Below are positions 10,422 to 18,210 of a DNA stretch of 64,000 nucleotides, in pieces. Both the position numbers and the translations under genes were made by a program. The stretch is from Nitrospirales bacterium (GTDB lineage Bacteria; Nitrospirota; Nitrospiria; Nitrospirales; UBA8639). The DNA is taken from the NCBI GenBank assembly GCA_029261295.1, contig JAJDBP010000002.1:310001-374000 (forward strand). The letters run 5' to 3'. The notes under the pieces were generated by a model that was not told the origin of the DNA, made no database searches, and saw only the letters and a list, made by a program, of their open reading frames with translations. Each line of letters starts with the position of its first letter. Position 1 is the first letter of the stretch.

Positions 10422-10497
10422 GAGCCGCTAGCTCAGTTGGTAGAGCATCGCCCTTTTAAGGCGAGGGTCGTGCGTTCGAGCCGCACGCGGCTCACCA
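10422..10497 (+). tRNA. tRNA-Lys (TTT)
   Basis: Cloverleaf GAGCCGCTAGCTCAGTTGGTAGAGCATCGCCCTTTTAAGGCGAGGGTCGTGCGTTCGAGCCGCACGCGGCTCACCA. Confidence 0.96.
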
Positions 10498-11594
10498 GAA
10501 GAATCAATGGGTTGCGACTCTTCTGGTTCCTCCTCACTTCCCCCAGTCACGGTTTTAGTCACGGTTCCATCTGGAATTTTCCCCGCAAAGGTCGTCAGTC
10601 CTTCTACCGCACTCCATAAATGAGTCGGGCTGAGATGGGCATAGCGCGACAACATGGCCGGACTCTTCCATCCCCCTAAAGCCATCAGTGTTCGATCATT
10701 TGCGCCTTGCATGGCCAGCCGACTGGCGAAGGTATGTCTGAGGTCATGAAACCGAAATGGAGCCAATTTAGAGGCATTCACTGCCTTATCAAATGCCCGT
10801 CGGAGATAGCGCACGTCCAGTGGAAAAATTCGGTCCTGAGGGCCAACCTCGGACGATTTCTGGATATTGCTCAGGAGATCTTGGACGGTCGAATTCATAG
10901 GAACTCTCCGAGAATCCCCAGCCTTGGTTTCGCGAAGGGCCAAGATCCCTGTATCCCAATCTACATCAGACCATTTCAATCGTAACAATTCACCTTGTCG
11001 GCATCCCGTGTTTACAGCTGCCACGACGATGGACCGATATTTTTCTGGAAGCTTTTCAAATAAGGTCGCTTCTTGTCCAGCTGTGAGGTATCGGACTAAT
11101 ACATTATTGACCTTAGGCGGCTTTACTCGGCTTGCTGGATTTTCTTTTAGCATTCCCAACCGGCGAGCATCATTCAGTGCGGCTTTCAGGACCCCAAAAA
11201 ATCGTAGGACTGTCCCTGGCTGATAGCCTTCCTCTGCCAATGCGGATAAGACCTTCTCGATATGCCGGGGCCCCATCTTGTTGATATCCAGATCCCCCAA
11301 TTCGGCAATCCAGCGGTCGATTCGTGACTTGTCATCGCCTTTCCGTTTCCGGCGAGCGTCAATCCGAGCAATATAATCATTTGCGACATCCCGAAAGAGA
11401 ATTGTTTTCGGCTTCTCGAAATGCTTCCCTGAAAGCTGTTCGCTTTTCAGTCTGCCATAAAGAGCCTTTGCCTCACTCTTCGTCGAACAGCGAATCCGTC
11501 TTTCTCTGCCATTTACCCATATTCTCGTAGACCACCGTCCACTCTTGGGCGGCCATTCCAAAACCCCACGGTCTCTCCCACCTTTTCTAGCCAT
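10428..11594 (-). CDS. tyrosine recombinase/integrase
   Basis: NTGCRQGELLRLKWSDVDW, HDLRHTFASRL, LGGWKSPAMLSRYAH; C-terminus runs into antisense of tRNA-Lys. Confidence 0.93.
   Translation of the reverse strand: MARKGGRDRGVLEWPPKSGRWSTRIWVNGRERRIRCSTKSEAKALYGRLKSEQLSGKHFEKPKTILFRDVANDYIARIDARRKRKGDDKSRIDRWIAELGDLDINKMGPRHIEKVLSALAEEGYQPGTVLRFFGVLKAALNDARRLGMLKENPASRVKPPKVNNVLVRYLTAGQEATLFEKLPEKYRSIVVAAVNTGCRQGELLRLKWSDVDWDTGILALRETKAGDSRRVPMNSTVQDLLSNIQKSSEVGPQDRIFPLDVRYLRRAFDKAVNASKLAPFRFHDLRHTFASRLAMQGANDRTLMALGGWKSPAMLSRYAHLSPTHLWSAVEGLTTFAGKIPDGTVTKTVTGGSEEEPEESQPIDSSGEPRAARTHDPRLKRAMLYQLS
10450..10500 (+). repeat. attL core (tRNA-Lys 3' part)
   Basis: gcccttttaaggcgagggtcgtgcgttcgagccgcacgcggctcaccagaa, identical to 18160-18210. 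Confidence 0.95.
10546..10567 (+). repeat. candidate integrase arm-type sites, left end
   Basis: GTCACGGTTTTAGTCACGGTTC, 21/22 identical to 17999-18020. Confidence 0.7.
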
Positions 11595-11604
11595 ATCGTG
11601 CCCC

Positions 11605-12504
11605 CTATTTATTAGTTTTCCCTTTTCGGGATTTACTCTTGTCAGTTGCTTTTTTCCCTTTGCGTTGAGCTGCCCTCCATTGACGAACATTTGCCTGGTT
11701 TTGGCAACGGGGCGAGCAATAGATTCCCCGGTGATGCCGAGCTAAAAAGATTCGACTACATTTTGAATTGGGGCACACTTGAATCCCACTCCCTTCCTCT
11801 AAGTCCAGCATCACCATGAGATACATGAGGCCCAATAAAGAAGGCGAATCCCACCACATTATCCAATCTCTGTTTGGAACGTTTTTGTTTAGGGTGTTTT
11901 GGATCAGGCGGAACCGAAATCCATAAAACTTAATGCCAAGTATTTTTTCCAAGGTACGGCTGGCGTGGAGCCTGACGGAGGGGTCTGGATTAACCTCAGC
12001 AGCTTGGGCAAGAGCAATAGTGGCACGTAATTCCTCTTGCGCTTCATGAAACTGGGAAAGCTTCATTGTCGTGTAGTGCTTCCAAACATAGCCGTAGGGG
12101 GGAGGTTGGTCGGCTTTCTGTACCTGAAAGATGGCGTTGATGTCTTTCCCCGTCCAGGTGTGGCTAGGTTTCTCCTTCGGAACGGAGGATTTGAGAATGC
12201 GTAGGTCAAAACCATCAAGTCGGGATGGATCGATGTTCCCTGTGAAGTTCAGCGGACCGGGAAGTCCAAATTCTTGGCAAAAGCGAAGAACTTCTTTTGG
12301 CCGCTGAGGATGAACATCGAGGAAGAGATAGGGGAGGGACTTCCCTCCTTTCGGTGGGTTCTGTTCCCTTGGCCAGTAGTGGTCAAACGGATCATAAGAA
12401 AGAGGACTTTCGACGATGATCTTGTCCTTAACCAATTGAGCTTTTCTTGGTTGGCCCCATTGAGACTCATACGTTTTTAAGGGGAGGTTACTTCTAGGCT
12501 TCAT
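11605..12504 (-). CDS. CGNR zinc-finger-like protein
   Basis: C-terminal CPNSKCSRIFLARHHRGIYCSPRCQNQANVRQWR. Confidence 0.65.
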   Translation of the reverse strand: MKPRSNLPLKTYESQWGQPRKAQLVKDKIIVESPLSYDPFDHYWPREQNPPKGGKSLPYLFLDVHPQRPKEVLRFCQEFGLPGPLNFTGNIDPSRLDGFDLRILKSSVPKEKPSHTWTGKDINAIFQVQKADQPPPYGYVWKHYTTMKLSQFHEAQEELRATIALAQAAEVNPDPSVRLHASRTLEKILGIKFYGFRFRLIQNTLNKNVPNRDWIMWWDSPSLLGLMYLMVMLDLEEGSGIQVCPNSKCSRIFLARHHRGIYCSPRCQNQANVRQWRAAQRKGKKATDKSKSRKGKTNK

Positions 12505-12623
12505 AGTTTTTCAGGGGGTAGGTGTAATTGAATGTAATTGAATAAAGCGATTTATCAATTTCATATCTCATAATATAACTCTAGGGAAAACAGTGTCAAT
12601 ACTTTTAGCCATGGAGGAAGAAG

Positions 12624-12836
12624 ATGGAATTGAACAAACCTCAATTGGGACGGTTGATGACGTGTGAGGAAGTGGCGGATGCCTTGGGGCTTCGCGTTTC
12701 AACAATTAGGAGAATGATTCTGGAGCGCCGAATCGACACGGTACGACCGTCGCGCCGAAGTGTGCGGATTCCCGAAATCGCCGTTCAACATATTCTTCGT
12801 GCAGGCTATCGCCCAGCAATTCAGGAAGGAGCATAA
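12624..12836 (+). CDS. excisionase/AlpA-like helix-turn-helix protein
   Basis: LMTCEEVADALGLRVSTIRRMILERRIDTVRPSRRSVRIPE. Confidence 0.8.
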   Translation: MELNKPQLGRLMTCEEVADALGLRVSTIRRMILERRIDTVRPSRRSVRIPEIAVQHILRAGYRPAIQEGA

Positions 12837-12842
12837 GGGCCT

Positions 12843-13310
12843 ATGCTCTTGGACCAAATCTTAGACCTAATTGGATCGGTACGGAAGAGTGGCCAGGGAT
12901 GGATGGCGAAATGTCCAGCCCATGAAGATCGAAGCCCTTCCCTCTCAATCAGAGAGGCAGAAGATCGAGTCCTTCTCCATTGCTTTTCGGGGTGTAGCGT
13001 TGCCGCGATCTGTGGGGCGTTAGGTATCGGCATTCGAGACTTATTCGCTGAGAATCTGTCACCCGTTCAATGGACCCAACTCCAACAAGCACGACGAGAA
13101 CGAAAACAGGCTGACCACAAGAAAAAGATACAGGAAAGTCGGGTTATTGACGCACGAAGAGAAGCCGAGGCTCTACTCCGAGCAAGTCAAGGCCAAGATA
13201 TTTCACAATGGAGCGAGGAAAAATTTGATCGAGTGATGAAGGCCGTAGGGCGCGCCTACGACTTATTGCGAGAGGAAAATGAGGATACTTTCTATGGACA
13301 CCTTGGATGA
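12843..13310 (+). CDS. CHC2 zinc-finger primase-like protein (no TOPRIM domain seen)
   Basis: GWMAKCPAHEDRSPSLSI...VLLHCFSGCSVAAICGALGI. Confidence 0.85.
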   Translation: MLLDQILDLIGSVRKSGQGWMAKCPAHEDRSPSLSIREAEDRVLLHCFSGCSVAAICGALGIGIRDLFAENLSPVQWTQLQQARRERKQADHKKKIQESRVIDARREAEALLRASQGQDISQWSEEKFDRVMKAVGRAYDLLREENEDTFYGHLG

Positions 13311-14664
13311 GCAACTAAGCGTCTTTGAGGCAACGACACAAGAAATTGGTATGCCAATTCTGGAGGATGAGGCAACCAATTTTGAGTGTGACGGTATTCC
13401 TATCAATGCTCCGGCTGACAAACAATGGCCCGATCCAATCAATGAAGCGGCCTATTATGGATTGGCTGGAGAATTTGTGCGTCTGGTAGAGCCGGAATCA
13501 GAAGCCGACCCTGTGGCCATTCTTTTGCAATTTCTCACGGCCTTCGGGTCGGTGGTTGGTCGAGGACCGCATTTTGTCGCGGAAGGGACACGACACTATA
13601 CGAATCTCTTTATGGTCCTCGTGGGACAAACCTCCAAGGCCAGGAAGGGGAGTAGCTGGTCACATGTGTGGAATATTTTTAACGGCTGCGATGAAGTGTG
13701 GGCGACGAATCGGGTGAAGGGAGGCCTTTCTTCAGGAGAGGGTCTCATCTGGAATGTTCGAGATCCCATCTATAAACAAGAACCGATTAAAGATAAGGGA
13801 TTGCACACCGGAGAATACCAAGAAATCTGTGTGGATCCCGGTGTTGAGGATAAACGACTATTGGCCCAAGAAGCGGAATTTGCGGCACTCTTACATATGC
13901 CGGATCGGTCAGGAAACACCTTGTCACCCATTATTCGCAAAGCGTGGGAATCAGGAAATTTAGAGTCCCTCACCAAAAATTCCCCAGCCAAAGCCACCAA
14001 TGCGCATATCAGCATTGTGGGCCATATCGTGAAGGACGAAGTTCGGCGATATCTGAGCCGCACAGAAGCGGGGAATGGCTTCGGGAATCGGTTCTTGTGG
14101 GTGTGTGCTACGCGATCCAAGTTTCTTCCCGAAGGCGGACGGACCGACCAACTGAATTTTGCTCCATTAATCCATAGGCTGAAGGTGGCTATTGAGACCG
14201 CTCGCGCCACGGGTGAATTACGCCGCGATGAAGGCGCTAGGGAGATATGGCGGACCGTCTATCCCAAATTATCCGAAGGGGTTCCAGGAATGTTAGGCGC
14301 AGTCACGTCACGTGCCGAGGCCCAGGTAATGCGGTTGGCTTGTCTCTATGCCTTATTAGATGGGGCCACAGAAATTAAAGCACTGCACCTGCGTGCAGCA
14401 TTGGCAGTTTGGGAATATTGTAAAGCGAGTGCTCGGTTTATCTTTGGCGATACACTTGGCGATCCGATAGGCGATGACATTCTGACAGCGCTCCGGAATA
14501 ATTTAGATGGGCTAACACGGACTGAGATTAGTCAGCTCTTGCATGGCAACCGTAACCGGCAGCAAATTGGACGGGCATTGGGGGTGTTATTGGAATATGG
14601 GCTAGCGCGAATGATTTCTGAAGAAACAGGAGGCCGAAAGGCTGAGCGGTGGTTCGTGACCTAG
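13294..14664 (+). CDS. DUF3987/YfjI-like replication (primase-helicase) protein
   Basis: GPHFVAEGTRHYTNLFMVLVGQTSKARKGSSW; winged-helix-like C-terminus; overlaps the upstream primase ORF. Confidence 0.75.
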   Translation: MDTLDEQLSVFEATTQEIGMPILEDEATNFECDGIPINAPADKQWPDPINEAAYYGLAGEFVRLVEPESEADPVAILLQFLTAFGSVVGRGPHFVAEGTRHYTNLFMVLVGQTSKARKGSSWSHVWNIFNGCDEVWATNRVKGGLSSGEGLIWNVRDPIYKQEPIKDKGLHTGEYQEICVDPGVEDKRLLAQEAEFAALLHMPDRSGNTLSPIIRKAWESGNLESLTKNSPAKATNAHISIVGHIVKDEVRRYLSRTEAGNGFGNRFLWVCATRSKFLPEGGRTDQLNFAPLIHRLKVAIETARATGELRRDEGAREIWRTVYPKLSEGVPGMLGAVTSRAEAQVMRLACLYALLDGATEIKALHLRAALAVWEYCKASARFIFGDTLGDPIGDDILTALRNNLDGLTRTEISQLLHGNRNRQQIGRALGVLLEYGLARMISEETGGRKAERWFVT

Positions 14665-14673
14665 CTATGAGGA

Positions 14674-14745
14674 ACGAAATAGACGAATTAAACGAAAAAA
14701 GGGTAGTTGGGGATAGACTTATTTCGTTACTTTCGTTTCTTTCGT
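14674..14745. repeat. 72-bp dyad of six ACGAAA-type hexamers (3+3)
   Basis: ACGAAA/ACGAAT/ACGAAA at 14674, 14683, 14692 and TTTCGT at 14722, 14731, 14740; exact 9-bp spacing, one shared symmetry centre at 14709.5. Confidence 0.85.
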
Positions 14746-14754
14746 AGGAGGAAC

Positions 14755-14991
14755 ATGGGTAAATATCTCGATATGGCAGATGCCGTGATGGGCTTAAAGG
14801 CGAAGAACCAAGGGAGATTAGTGGAATTTGATTCTCCATTGTTTGGTCGCTGTTATGGACGGATTCGAGAGGTCAAAGCCAATCTCTACAAAATTACCAA
14901 TCATTCCGTCCTTCAAGATGAAGCGGTGATCCCTGGAGCGTGGCTTGTCAGAGTTATGGACGATGACCTAAGAGCCCACAATTACGAATGA
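14755..14991 (+). CDS. small hypothetical island protein (78 aa)
   Basis: AGGAGG ribosome-binding site just before ATG; no family recognised. Confidence 0.6.
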   Translation: MGKYLDMADAVMGLKAKNQGRLVEFDSPLFGRCYGRIREVKANLYKITNHSVLQDEAVIPGAWLVRVMDDDLRAHNYE

Positions 14992-16243
14992 GACGAAGAA
15001 AGTCAGTAACCTTCTTGGTCAAACGAGTGCATATGTTCCTTCCCTCAACATTTTTGTAGAGCGGTTTTCCATTCATGATACAGGATTGAATGAGTTCGGA
15101 AATTAGATTATGTGTTTCATTGATAACTTCATAGGAACTCTTTTGGTGGATCTTGGGTTCTACCTTTCCAGTGTGAACAGCTTGACTACGTAGTTCATAA
15201 AAATTCGTAATTAAACTCACTACCCTTTTTTTCTTCCGGCCCCTGATGTCCAAAATTGCAGGAATTCGCTGCCGTAAGGTTTTAGCAATTCCATCTTCGG
15301 GTGGTTGGTTCCGATCAATGACCAATGCCTCTAAAGCTATTCCTGAGTCTATTGCACTATCTCGAAGAAAGCTTTGCCCCTTCGATGAGTTCAATCGTTC
15401 TACGGGGACCTCAATAGCTGCTTGTTCTTCTTTGGACAATTTCAAAAGGGAATTGAATAGCTTTTCCCATTCATTGAGCTTTTTTGTATCCCAGGGTGAT
15501 GGGGGAGCCACTTGAAGTTTATTGCTGAAAATCCATGGCTGTGGGGACGGATCCCCATTCAGCGGAACCCAATCAGGAAATTCTTTCCAAGAATACCAAA
15601 ACCTGATTCCATGTTGGCCTAAGACGCCAAGAAGTTGGGCCAGAATACGTAAATCTTTTGTGGAGTCGGACATATTGGGTACTGGTAGGTTTGAAGAAAA
15701 AATGGCGTGTCTAGGAACCATCACTTCCCTCATTATGGCCGCTGAAGGTCCATGGATCCCAGGGAGAAGGTTCTGGTCAATTTGCGTTTTGTGATGTGAA
15801 GTAGAAAGAATTTCGGAGTCCCAGGGAATGAGAGAGAGTTCAGGAGTAATAGTGAATTGTTCCGGAACTTGAATTCCGTCAATCGAAAAAAATTGGTGAA
15901 AAGGAATTTTAGGAGAGCTGAAAAACTTCTCTATATTTTGAACTGCCTCCTTTGGTCCGTGCTGGCTACCTCTGCGGATGAGCCAATGGGCAAGAAAGTC
16001 ATAGGTTAAATATTGAGCTCCCCCTGATGGCCAAACTTGGTATTGGTTATGAAAAAATTTTAATTCGGGAATTCCTTTAAAAAGGTCTAAGAATTCTATT
16101 AAACAGGTCGGAGCCTTTTCCGGTACTTTGTCCGCTAAGGGCAGAAGGAAATGGATAGGCATCTTATTCTCCTGTTCCAAATCTTCAATCCGGGTTAAAA
16201 GGATTTCAAGCTTTGGAATCAGAGCTTGCAAGTTCATAGCCAA
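14954..16243 (-). CDS. hypothetical protein with C-terminal HEPN-like domain (ApeA-like?)
   Basis: SAIDSGIALEALVI...LRQRIPAILD...LITNFYELRSQAVHTGKV; R-x4-H motif in RSQAVH. Confidence 0.6.
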   Translation of the reverse strand: MAMNLQALIPKLEILLTRIEDLEQENKMPIHFLLPLADKVPEKAPTCLIEFLDLFKGIPELKFFHNQYQVWPSGGAQYLTYDFLAHWLIRRGSQHGPKEAVQNIEKFFSSPKIPFHQFFSIDGIQVPEQFTITPELSLIPWDSEILSTSHHKTQIDQNLLPGIHGPSAAIMREVMVPRHAIFSSNLPVPNMSDSTKDLRILAQLLGVLGQHGIRFWYSWKEFPDWVPLNGDPSPQPWIFSNKLQVAPPSPWDTKKLNEWEKLFNSLLKLSKEEQAAIEVPVERLNSSKGQSFLRDSAIDSGIALEALVIDRNQPPEDGIAKTLRQRIPAILDIRGRKKKRVVSLITNFYELRSQAVHTGKVEPKIHQKSSYEVINETHNLISELIQSCIMNGKPLYKNVEGRNICTRLTKKVTDFLRLIRNCGLLGHRP

Positions 16244-16638
16244 TGCCCGTCGTTAGCCTATTCGCAACAGGTCACAAGGGGTAATAATTTTTATCCAATC
16301 TTTCTCAAGCCTCTTCAGGAAACCTCTACGAAAGAACATACCAAAAGAAAAGAAAAAATGATTCCTGAAAATAAACGACGGGTGGTCTCCCCCGATAATG
16401 GAATCAACGTCTTGTATGATGTTAAGAGCGTCTTTTAACCCACCCACCTGTGGAGAACTCAAAGGCCAGAGAGAGGGGATGCCTTTCAATACGCCTTGTT
16501 CCAGCAATCTGACCGGGACGAAAGATGTCTCACTAGCATTCTATCTTTTTCCAAACAAGACCTTCACACTCTCAAAGAATTTCTCGCCAAAAAGAGTTTT
16601 TCCTTTCTCTGGGCACCATAAAAAACTATTCTAGGTCT

Positions 16639-17151
16639 ATGCCTGGTCACAAAAACCTCTCTATGAGAGTTGTCCTCCTTTTTGTGGCATGCCTCTCTCT
16701 GTGTGTCTCTTCCGTTGCCTGTCAAGAAGCAGCATCAGAACAAGCTAAAGGTGGCTTTGAATATCACCAGGTCGTCTCAACTGCCATCGACACACTGGGA
16801 TATGACACCACACAACACATACTGTTCGTTCGGTTCATCAACGGCTATGAATATTATTACTTTGAAGTCCCCCGTGAGGGATTTGAGAACTTTCTAAACG
16901 CTCCCTCAAAAGGCAGATACTTCAACCAATATATAAAGCTGCATTTTTCAAACAAACGATTGAACCCTCCTCCAAAAAATAAGCAGAGAAGAGTTGAAGT
17001 GGAAGGGAAGAATTATGATGGATGGTCTTGGGTCGTTTTAAAGTTTGTACAATTTACACAGTGGAAGGCTAGGCATTTTCCAATAATTTCTTGTCGACTA
17101 TGGAGAGCGAGCTCTATTTCATGCTCATATTCAATTGTGCCGCCATCATGA
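16639..17151 (+). CDS. KTSC-domain protein with N-terminal signal/lipoprotein-like sequence
   Basis: STAIDTLGYDTTQHILFVRFINGYEYYYFEVPREGFENFLNAPSKGRYFNQYI; hydrophobic N-terminus ending SSVAC. Confidence 0.7.
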   Translation: MPGHKNLSMRVVLLFVACLSLCVSSVACQEAASEQAKGGFEYHQVVSTAIDTLGYDTTQHILFVRFINGYEYYYFEVPREGFENFLNAPSKGRYFNQYIKLHFSNKRLNPPPKNKQRRVEVEGKNYDGWSWVVLKFVQFTQWKARHFPIISCRLWRASSISCSYSIVPPS

Positions 17152-17741
17152 CCATCTGTATCTATTTCTGCATAGGTATCTTCTTCCACATAACGTTTTT
17201 TGGATACCTTTTTAACTTCTAAAATTGCCCCTATGTCAGGCACTTTCAAGGTCAAGGGGTATTCAGCGTTCTCTTTCCACTTTTTGTAGTTCTGGAAAAT
17301 ATCTCTTACCTTGTTTATCTTGGTTTCTTCACAAGACATTACGAAATCAATAGGGGGAGTATTACCTTTTGCTTCAGCCCCAGATGGATTTCCCATCCTA
17401 AGAAAAACTCTTTCGTCAGTCCTCCAAATATCTTCAACTTCCCCACGTATAAAAAGAGTTTTTCCCACCATGCCTTTCATCCATTCTTCAATCTCGATAG
17501 AAAACGGCTCCGAAAAATAAGGGTTGCGATGTTCTTTATACCTCACGATCTCTTTGTCATAATTAATGGCATGATGTTTTTGGATAAAATCCTGAATGAA
17601 CCTCTGCTCCTCTTCTTTTGGTCTTTGCTCTTCCTGTACTGAGGGTGTTTTGGAATTGTGTGTTGGTGTTTTAGAAAATAGAAGGAAGCCTAATCCAATA
17701 ACCACTAACCCCAAAATTATTTTCTCTGCTTTGCCTGCCAT
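17013..17741 (-). CDS. hypothetical single-TM-anchored protein
   Basis: N-terminal TM (IILGLVVIGLGFLLF) followed by soluble domain; 3' end overlaps the convergent KTSC ORF. Confidence 0.6.
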   Translation of the reverse strand: MAGKAEKIILGLVVIGLGFLLFSKTPTHNSKTPSVQEEQRPKEEEQRFIQDFIQKHHAINYDKEIVRYKEHRNPYFSEPFSIEIEEWMKGMVGKTLFIRGEVEDIWRTDERVFLRMGNPSGAEAKGNTPPIDFVMSCEETKINKVRDIFQNYKKWKENAEYPLTLKVPDIGAILEVKKVSKKRYVEEDTYAEIDTDGHDGGTIEYEHEIELALHSRQEIIGKCLAFHCVNCTNFKTTQDHPS

Positions 17742-17998
17742 TCTATTTGTTCCTCAATAATATTTGGGAGCATCATGAGGATTTTCCCTAAATCCTCTAC
17801 CCTAGAAGAAGCCCCATCTAGCATAACTTTTACAGAATTCCACAATAAAAGCTATAAGAGACAAATTAAGAAGAGTCATCTGGTAAGAGAATGCTGCTCT
17901 AACCAAATTTCTCAAGCACAGCGAGGAAGCCCTAAAGGATGGTTAGACCCCCCACTCTACGTTTTCTGGCTACCCATCGTTGGGAGGGAACGAATCTG

Positions 17999-18043
17999 GT
18001 CACGATTTTAGTCACGGTTCGGTCACAGTTTCAATCACAATCA
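17999..18043 (+). repeat. candidate integrase arm-type sites, right end
   Basis: GTCACGATTTTAGTCACGGTTCGGTCACAGTTTCAATCACAATC; first 22 bp match 10546-10567 at 21/22. Confidence 0.7.
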
Positions 18044-18159
18044 AGCATCTGCCTGTTTCGTCATTCATCGCAATAAAAAATGAATAAATGCCTGTCCAGT
18101 TAAAGAGATAATGACTGTTCATCTTCCTCTGTCACTGTTGGTCGTTATCCCCCTGGCTT

Positions 18160-18210
18160 GCCCTTTTAAGGCGAGGGTCGTGCGTTCGAGCCGCACGCGG
18201 CTCACCAGAA
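18160..18210 (+). repeat. attR core (tRNA-Lys 3' remnant)
   Basis: 51-bp exact copy of 10450-10500, lacking the tRNA 5' half. Confidence 0.95.

Follow-up and report, generated by a model that had tools for sequence, protein, structure and literature searches.

The array of six short units that lies directly 3′ of a DUF3987 gene in a tRNA-Lys island of a Nitrospirales genome is likely to be the iteron cluster of the island's replication origin, recognized by the island's own DUF3987 helicase; both the binding and the replication are inferred. The array itself, its conserved place after DUF3987 genes, the drift of its sequence between lineages and its covariation with the winged helix of the protein are shown by computation. 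The origin reading is strengthened because DUF3987 genes of different phyla are followed by arrays of the same architecture built from other units, and because the first base of the unit covaries with a residue that adjoins the DUF3987 recognition helix.

The array and its island

The six hexamers were all verified at their positions in the window, that is, the whole 64,000-nucleotide stretch that was analyzed. ACGAAA, ACGAAT and ACGAAA, starting at 14674, 14683 and 14692, form the left arm, and three TTTCGT copies, starting at 14722, 14731 and 14740, form the right arm; the phasing is exactly 9 bp in both arms, which have one common centre, and the whole array occupies 14674-14745. The initial annotation, made from sequence alone, had reported these hexamers with their positions, their 9-bp spacing and their shared symmetry centre, and had placed the array between a CHC2/DUF3987 module and a 78-aa gene, ending at the ribosome-binding site of the latter. 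All of these claims held, the last TTTCGT directly preceding AGGAGG. The unit is better read, as a refinement of the hexamer, as a conserved ACGAA followed by a variable, A/T-rich tail. The distance from the DUF3987 stop codon (gene end 14664) to the start of the array is 9 bp.

When up to two mismatches are allowed, chance predicts 0.12 occurrences of ACGAA-N4-ACGAA-N4-ACGAA in the window, where its sole matches are the two arms, both perfect; a pattern search of the 4.06-Mb genome showed the array to be a single site. A blind search was made for any 3+3 inverted array with a period of 6-13, which was called significant when it beat all 100 shuffles. By this measure the region scores 35 (maximum 36), and 100 dinucleotide shuffles reach no more than 28 at any of these periods. 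Two more units, ACGAATGAG and ACGAAG, lie 9 bp apart at 14984-14998, overlapping the end of the 78-aa gene, and are not present in the related island of G035 described below.

The island that harbors the array is an integrated element of 7.7 kb (about 10450-18209) at tRNA-Lys, bounded by two perfect 51-bp copies of an att repeat (Table 1). No match to the 78-aa protein was found in Pfam, PHROG or PADLOC, and no relative among phage and plasmid records. The rest of the cargo (14954-17741) comprises a protein (16639-17151) that has a KTSC domain and begins with a lipoprotein-like signal, together with two minus-strand ORFs without informative matches (14954-16243 and 17013-17741). A search of the island proteins against Pfam, PHROG and PADLOC gave no match to terminase, capsid or interference genes. 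The island therefore does not meet the criteria for a PICI, since int, HTH_17, CHC2, DUF3987 and the array are present and terS, packaging and interference genes were not matched; nor does it meet those for a P4-like satellite, there being no matches in it to an alpha primase-helicase with psu, delta and sid. Terminase-like ORFs were noticed, by eye only, in the related loci L021 and L051.

Table 1. Positions of the array, the island genes and the DUF3987 domain features within the window
Feature	Position	Strand	Remarks
att repeat 1	10450..10500	+	overlaps 3′ end of tRNA-Lys (10422-10497)
Tyrosine integrase, adjoining tRNA-Lys	10428..11690	-	PF00589 E=3e-29
HTH_17 / AlpA-like excisionase-regulator	12624..12836	+	PF12728; PHROG excisionase and regulator
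CHC2 zinc-finger primase-like protein, predicted helicase partner	12843..13310	+	PF01807 E=6e-7; PHROG DNA primase
DUF3987 gene, 461 aa, predicted MCM-like AAA+ initiator helicase	13279..14664	+	PF13148 E=4e-9
C-terminal winged-helix domain	14458..14661	+	about residues 394-461, AF2
Ser418 codon	14530..14532	+	candidate second specificity residue, exploratory
Asn424 codon	14548..14550	+	residue tracking unit base 1
Left arm of array	14674..14697	+	three 9-bp units ACGAAATAG ACGAATTAA ACGAAA(AAA), predicted iterons
Inter-arm spacer	14698..14721		AAAGGGTAGTTGGGGATAGACTTA
Right arm of array	14722..14745	-	three inverted units, predicted iterons
78-aa gene, 3′ of array	14755..14991	+	function unknown; protein start MGKYLDMA
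att repeat 2	18160..18210	+	51-bp perfect repeat

A related island in the same genus

When 48 other genomes of the family were searched with the window DUF3987, a single match was obtained, in G035. This genome, which belongs to the same genus, carries a shorter tRNA-Lys element (L004/L005, contig C518) containing an integrase, the C-terminal part only of DUF3987, the array and a homologue of the 78-aa gene that is 80% identical to that of the window (L004). In this element the integrase region is joined to the C-terminal third of DUF3987, so that the N-terminus and core of the helicase are lost; the winged-helix part and the array are both kept despite this loss. It had been proposed at the outset that an alignment of related islands should show whether the hexamers and their 9-bp phasing are conserved while the spacers diverge. 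The island in L004 passes this check on all three counts.

Arrays downstream of DUF3987 homologues

With the window DUF3987 alone as query, no relatives were found among viral and genome contigs, and phage and plasmid records yielded only remote DUF3987 relatives. Homologues were reached by way of the 3+3 DNA pattern, followed by alignment of the DUF3987 proteins so found. Clustering of 3388 ORFs neighbouring ACGAA arrays gave one group that was array-adjacent in every case and consisted of five DUF3987 proteins, from genomes of Nitrospinota, Acidobacteria (Pyrinomonadaceae), Planctomycetota and Omnitrophota and from a viral contig. Four of the five are 43-55% identical to the window protein over the aligned part, and the arrays beside the five genes, like that of the window, are without the preceding C and the ACC/GGT ends that mark the dispersed palindromes discussed below.

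The blind search detected a period-9 3+3 array just 3′ of the stop codon in 33 of 83 distinct DUF3987 homologues and in none of 77 upstream control regions, whereas arrays of other periods were found at 4/83 DUF3987 genes and 1/77 controls. No significant 3+3 array was found in the region searched for 46 of the 83 homologues; several of these have partial or wider-spaced arrays when inspected by eye, and distant ones seem to have none there. Many of the loci are metagenome contigs, and their mobility is unknown. Unit spellings differ by lineage (ACGAA, ACGAC, ACGCC, ACGGA, GCGAA, GCGAC, GCGGA, GCGCN and others), and the inter-arm spacer of the significant arrays ranges from about 10 to 71 bp. 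Place, phase and symmetry are thus kept while the sequence drifts, as would be expected if sites and protein evolve together. In this set every array is preceded by a DUF3987 gene, and the gene after the array varies, being an integrase (L060), an HTH gene (L196) or a zinc-ribbon-like ORF (L046).

Several further features of these loci deserve mention. Some arrays have the inverted orientation, with the TTCGT-type arm first and the ACGAA-type arm second at the same 9-bp phase (L159, L162, L173, L180, L212 and L235), and because such arrays face outward, a strict inward 3+3 arrangement is not essential. At an Omnitrophota locus (L091), the end of DUF3987 and the array occur twice in tandem, at 2816-2887 and in a copy about 200 bp away. 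The classical PF13148 genes of L267-L270 are followed after the stop codon by 9-bp repeats with the units CCTCAATAT, TGCGGATAT and CCCGACATT, which were seen by eye and carry no statistics. Genes that follow arrays often begin M-x-x-Y-L-[DEN]-x-[AL], the remainder of the proteins being unlike, and 24 of 117 fit a loose form of the pattern. Such starts are found in the window (14755-14800) and in L021, L051, L151, L197, L199, L201, L202, L204, L210, L252, L330, L331, L358, L373 and L374; the shared start may possibly be a short docking peptide.

The DUF3987 protein

The window protein meets the criterion for DUF3987 membership (PF13148, 36.6 bits against a cut-off of 27). Its AlphaFold2 model (pLDDT 87.7, pTM 0.84) shows a helicase core and a C-terminal winged helix, the latter made up of helices 396-407, 414-420 and 427-439 and strands 443-448 and 455-460. 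The 50 best PDB matches listed by Foldseek are all MCM helicases (best E about 1e-7, probability 1.00, TM about 0.4), and a profile search of PDB sequences found no MCM homology at E<=0.1, so the likeness to MCM, which is predicted from the model, is at the level of the fold only. An earlier study predicted that DUF3987 constitutes a novel family of helicases in mobile elements and suggested that the winged helices of such primase-helicases recognize origins (Kazlauskas et al., 2018; PMC5862659). The passages of that study that bear on the question give no origin or recognition sequence, whereas here both are put forward and cross-validated.

Residue 424 and the first base of the unit

In the winged-helix alignment, the position of residue 424 of the window protein, which in the AlphaFold2 model is located in the turn preceding the recognition helix (427-439), is occupied by Asn in proteins whose arrays have ACG units and by His in those with GCG units. 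When the left arms of the significant arrays were read mechanically, Asn went with A in 19 cases and with another base in one, and His with A in none and with another base in nine (Fisher p=1e-6). A second reading, the purine rule, was fixed before the hold-out data were fetched and gave Asn-A in 20/20 and His-G in 8/9 of the first set, with no calls in 109 control regions. The hold-out comprised 32 new DUF3987 genes from other scans, nine of which have callable arrays: Asn-A in 4/4, His-G in 4/4 and one Lys with G. Mechanical calls therefore agree in 28/29 cases on the first set and in 8/8 Asn/His cases on the hold-out. Within the hold-out, the pairs L332/L334 and L373/L374 are close kin, and the independent number is nearer six. 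These two readings replaced two earlier ones: automatic orientation of the unit by conservation asymmetry was dropped for its many wrong-strand reads (Fisher p=0.02), and a strand-blind tally of the unit base was dropped for its ties.

A scan of about 400 alignment columns singles out the same position, column 424 reaching z=12.8 with mechanical labels (next column 5.5) and z=67 with curated labels (next column 4.9). The curated labels were read by eye after the pattern was known and are not independent. In a tree built from the helicase core, with the winged helix excluded, the unit base has changed at least 13 times, and the residue has changed with the base in all six independent pairs on supported branches (p=0.03); a more quickly built tree, whose set was only partly the same, contains three such pairs, all concordant. 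One exception to the rule is L172 (His, unit ATCCGTCGA), and L163 (Arg) and L317 (Lys), both with GCG units, fall outside it. Contacts of Asn with adenine and of His with guanine are chemically ordinary. Residue 424 is therefore likely to predict base 1 of the unit, Asn going with A and His with G, on statistical and not biochemical evidence.

Position 418 is a weaker candidate. Among 19 proteins whose units carry C at base 4 or 5, 13 have Arg there, against none of 30 others, a relation that was noticed after the fact; the independent pairs on supported branches that are informative for it number only three and leave it undecided.

Origin reading and proposed mechanism

An initiator with downstream iterons is expected to have iterated short sites by its gene, a helicase with a DNA-binding domain and site specificity in the C-terminal part. 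The site criterion is met by the iterated short sites immediately 3′ of the DUF3987 gene; the protein criterion, by prediction only, by the AAA+/MCM-like helicase with its C-terminal DNA-binding domain; and that of C-terminal specificity, statistically and not biochemically, by the covariation of residue 424. The leading idea of the initial annotation, an origin recognized by the island's primase-helicase, is thus supported; replication itself has not been shown.

In the mechanism that we propose, the island excises and DUF3987, as an MCM-like AAA+ helicase, would bind the six 9-bp units through the winged helix at its C-terminus, whose recognition helix would read the unit with its N-terminal end; Asn424 would recognize the A of ACGAA. 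Helicase subunits would in this way come to sit on two triplets of sites that face in opposite directions, the DNA would open between the triplets or next to them, and the CHC2 primase would then begin synthesis. Binding, the service of the six sites to one hexamer or two, melting, priming by CHC2 and replication are all inferred and rest on no experiment. It is also possible that the array serves autoregulation or partition, instead of initiation or beside it.

A separate class of dispersed ACGAA palindromes

The exact 3+3 ACGAA pattern is found in 17 viral contigs and in at least 120 stretches of sequenced species. Most of these matches, which come from many phyla, are dispersed chromosomal palindromes of the form ACC-ACGAAnnnC-ACGAAnnnC-ACGAA-loop-complement, with up to 76 exact copies in one genome. 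The sixth base is typical of the genome (ACGAAG, ACGAAA, ACGAAT or ACGAAC), and example loci are L035, L047 and L063 (within L010-L026 and L031-L150). No description of the ACC(ACGAAnnnC)3 palindrome was found in the open literature searched. The mirrored spacers of dispersed palindromes are complementary (z=+3.8), whereas those of DUF3987-linked arrays are not (z=-2.1), and the two populations of arrays are therefore distinct. The 9-bp ACGAA layout that they have in common is unexplained.

Alternative explanations

The array could be an operator, bound by DUF3987 or another island protein and regulating its own operon or the 78-aa gene. Its end at the ribosome-binding site of the 78-aa gene and the M-x-x-Y-L-[DEN] start shared by several post-array genes speak for this, and initiators often autoregulate. 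However, the gene after the array differs between islands while the DUF3987 gene before it is constant, which makes an operator less likely as the main role, and in known analogues the same place is the origin. The absence of any sigma-70-like promoter or terminator among those sought in 14500-15000 is weak evidence in the same direction. We regard the operator as an unlikely explanation, one that is not excluded and could possibly coexist with an origin. A hairpin in the 5′-UTR RNA, or a cruciform, controlling the 78-aa gene is much harder to sustain. The RNA does fold as a long imperfect hairpin of modest stability (z=-2.2), but direct repeats in inverted arms pair automatically. Moreover, the spacers of mirrored units match at 0.62, against 0.67 with shuffled unit order (z=-2.1, 17 linked arrays), so that pairing has not been selected; outward-facing arrays exist, and no Rfam covariance model matches a known structured RNA here. 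Both alternatives had been raised alongside the origin in the initial annotation, and both are disfavoured, the operator by the variable downstream gene and the hairpin by spacers that are not complementary.

That the window array is merely one of the dispersed ACGAA palindromes, with no link to island biology, was our first idea, and the same 3+3 pattern does occur in many viral contigs and genomes. It was dropped after the neighbour clustering and the spacer test, and is now very unlikely. The distinguishing features of that class (ACC/GGT ends, preceding C, complementary spacers, multiple copies) are not met by the window array, which lacks the C and the ACC...GGT-like ends and is single-copy in its genome, and the place beside DUF3987 is common to arrays of quite different unit sequence. 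Also very improbable is a partition, excision or packaging site of another island protein such as HTH_17. Such islands need excision and packaging sites, and an AlpA-like protein is encoded upstream; the covariation, however, is with residue 424 of the DUF3987 winged helix, and the att sites lie elsewhere.

Implications of the origin reading

Mobile elements of many phyla carry DUF3987, a domain whose function is unknown. If the origin reading is true, the origin of an island could be read from the DNA after its DUF3987 gene, and one or two residues of the protein would tell to which compatibility group the origin belongs, so that replication, host range and mutual exclusion in a large uncharacterized group of satellites and islands would become directly testable. 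The arrays would also offer a natural series of protein-DNA specificity switches, in which it could be followed how an initiator changes its site with its function kept, and bacterial MCM-like helicases would be tied to a defined origin structure.

A bolder reading can be put forward only tentatively, and on balance we would rather expect it to fail. It holds that DUF3987 is a large class of bacterial MCM-like initiators with a residue-base code, facing double loading and predictable origins. The code would comprise Asn-A and His-G at 424, Arg at 418 with C at base 4 or 5, and 9-bp-phased sites; the opposed sets of three sites would load two facing helicases, in parallel to the loading of the MCM double hexamer. 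If this were true, origins would be predictable from protein sequence across uncultured phyla.

Comparison with known systems

No described origin for DUF3987 was found in the open literature searched, and a description elsewhere is not excluded. In Vibrionaceae, the PICMI satellite replicates with the involvement of a DUF3987 protein (PMC10803314), and it resembles the window island in its int, alpA and DUF3987 'prim' genes; PICMI differs in requiring, according to that model, a Fis gene, and no iteron array is described in the relevant sections of that paper. The initial annotation had compared the island with P4-type satellites, and phage P4, with alpha and ori-crr, is indeed a satellite that encodes its own primase-helicase and carries the cognate iterated sites. 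Alpha is a single polypeptide whose helicase is of a different type, and its sites lie in two regions. The comparison holds as an analogy only, the initiators of SaPI and SCCmec being closer in layout.

In SaPI Rep and SCCmec Cch2, the C-terminal domain binds short iterons directly downstream of the protein's own gene (PMC7581432). SCCmec Cch/Cch2 are also alike in being MCM-like or self-loading helicases. They differ in their domains, which are DUF927 and Primase_Cterm/D5 and not DUF3987, and in their iterons, three copies of the 5-bp AAGTG as against six units in the window array; no residue-base relation is given in the sections of PMC7581432 that bear on the question.

The origin of a PICI lies 3′ of rep and has an AT-rich core with a set of iterons on either side (PMC6092414). 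The Rep-ori systems of SaPI and PICI (Ubeda et al., 2007; PMC6092414) share with the window island the order of integrase, regulator, primase, rep and an origin immediately 3′, as well as two sets of short iterons flanking a core and a Rep specificity that resides in the C-terminal domain. In contrast to them, the helicase here is DUF3987, MCM-like by fold, the units keep a strict 9-bp phase, mostly in an inverted 3+3 arrangement, and the window island showed neither terS nor any other PICI marker. The array and its protein thus probably belong to a known kind, the initiator helicase with downstream iterons, here with a helicase of the DUF3987 type and an unusual, testable residue-base rule.
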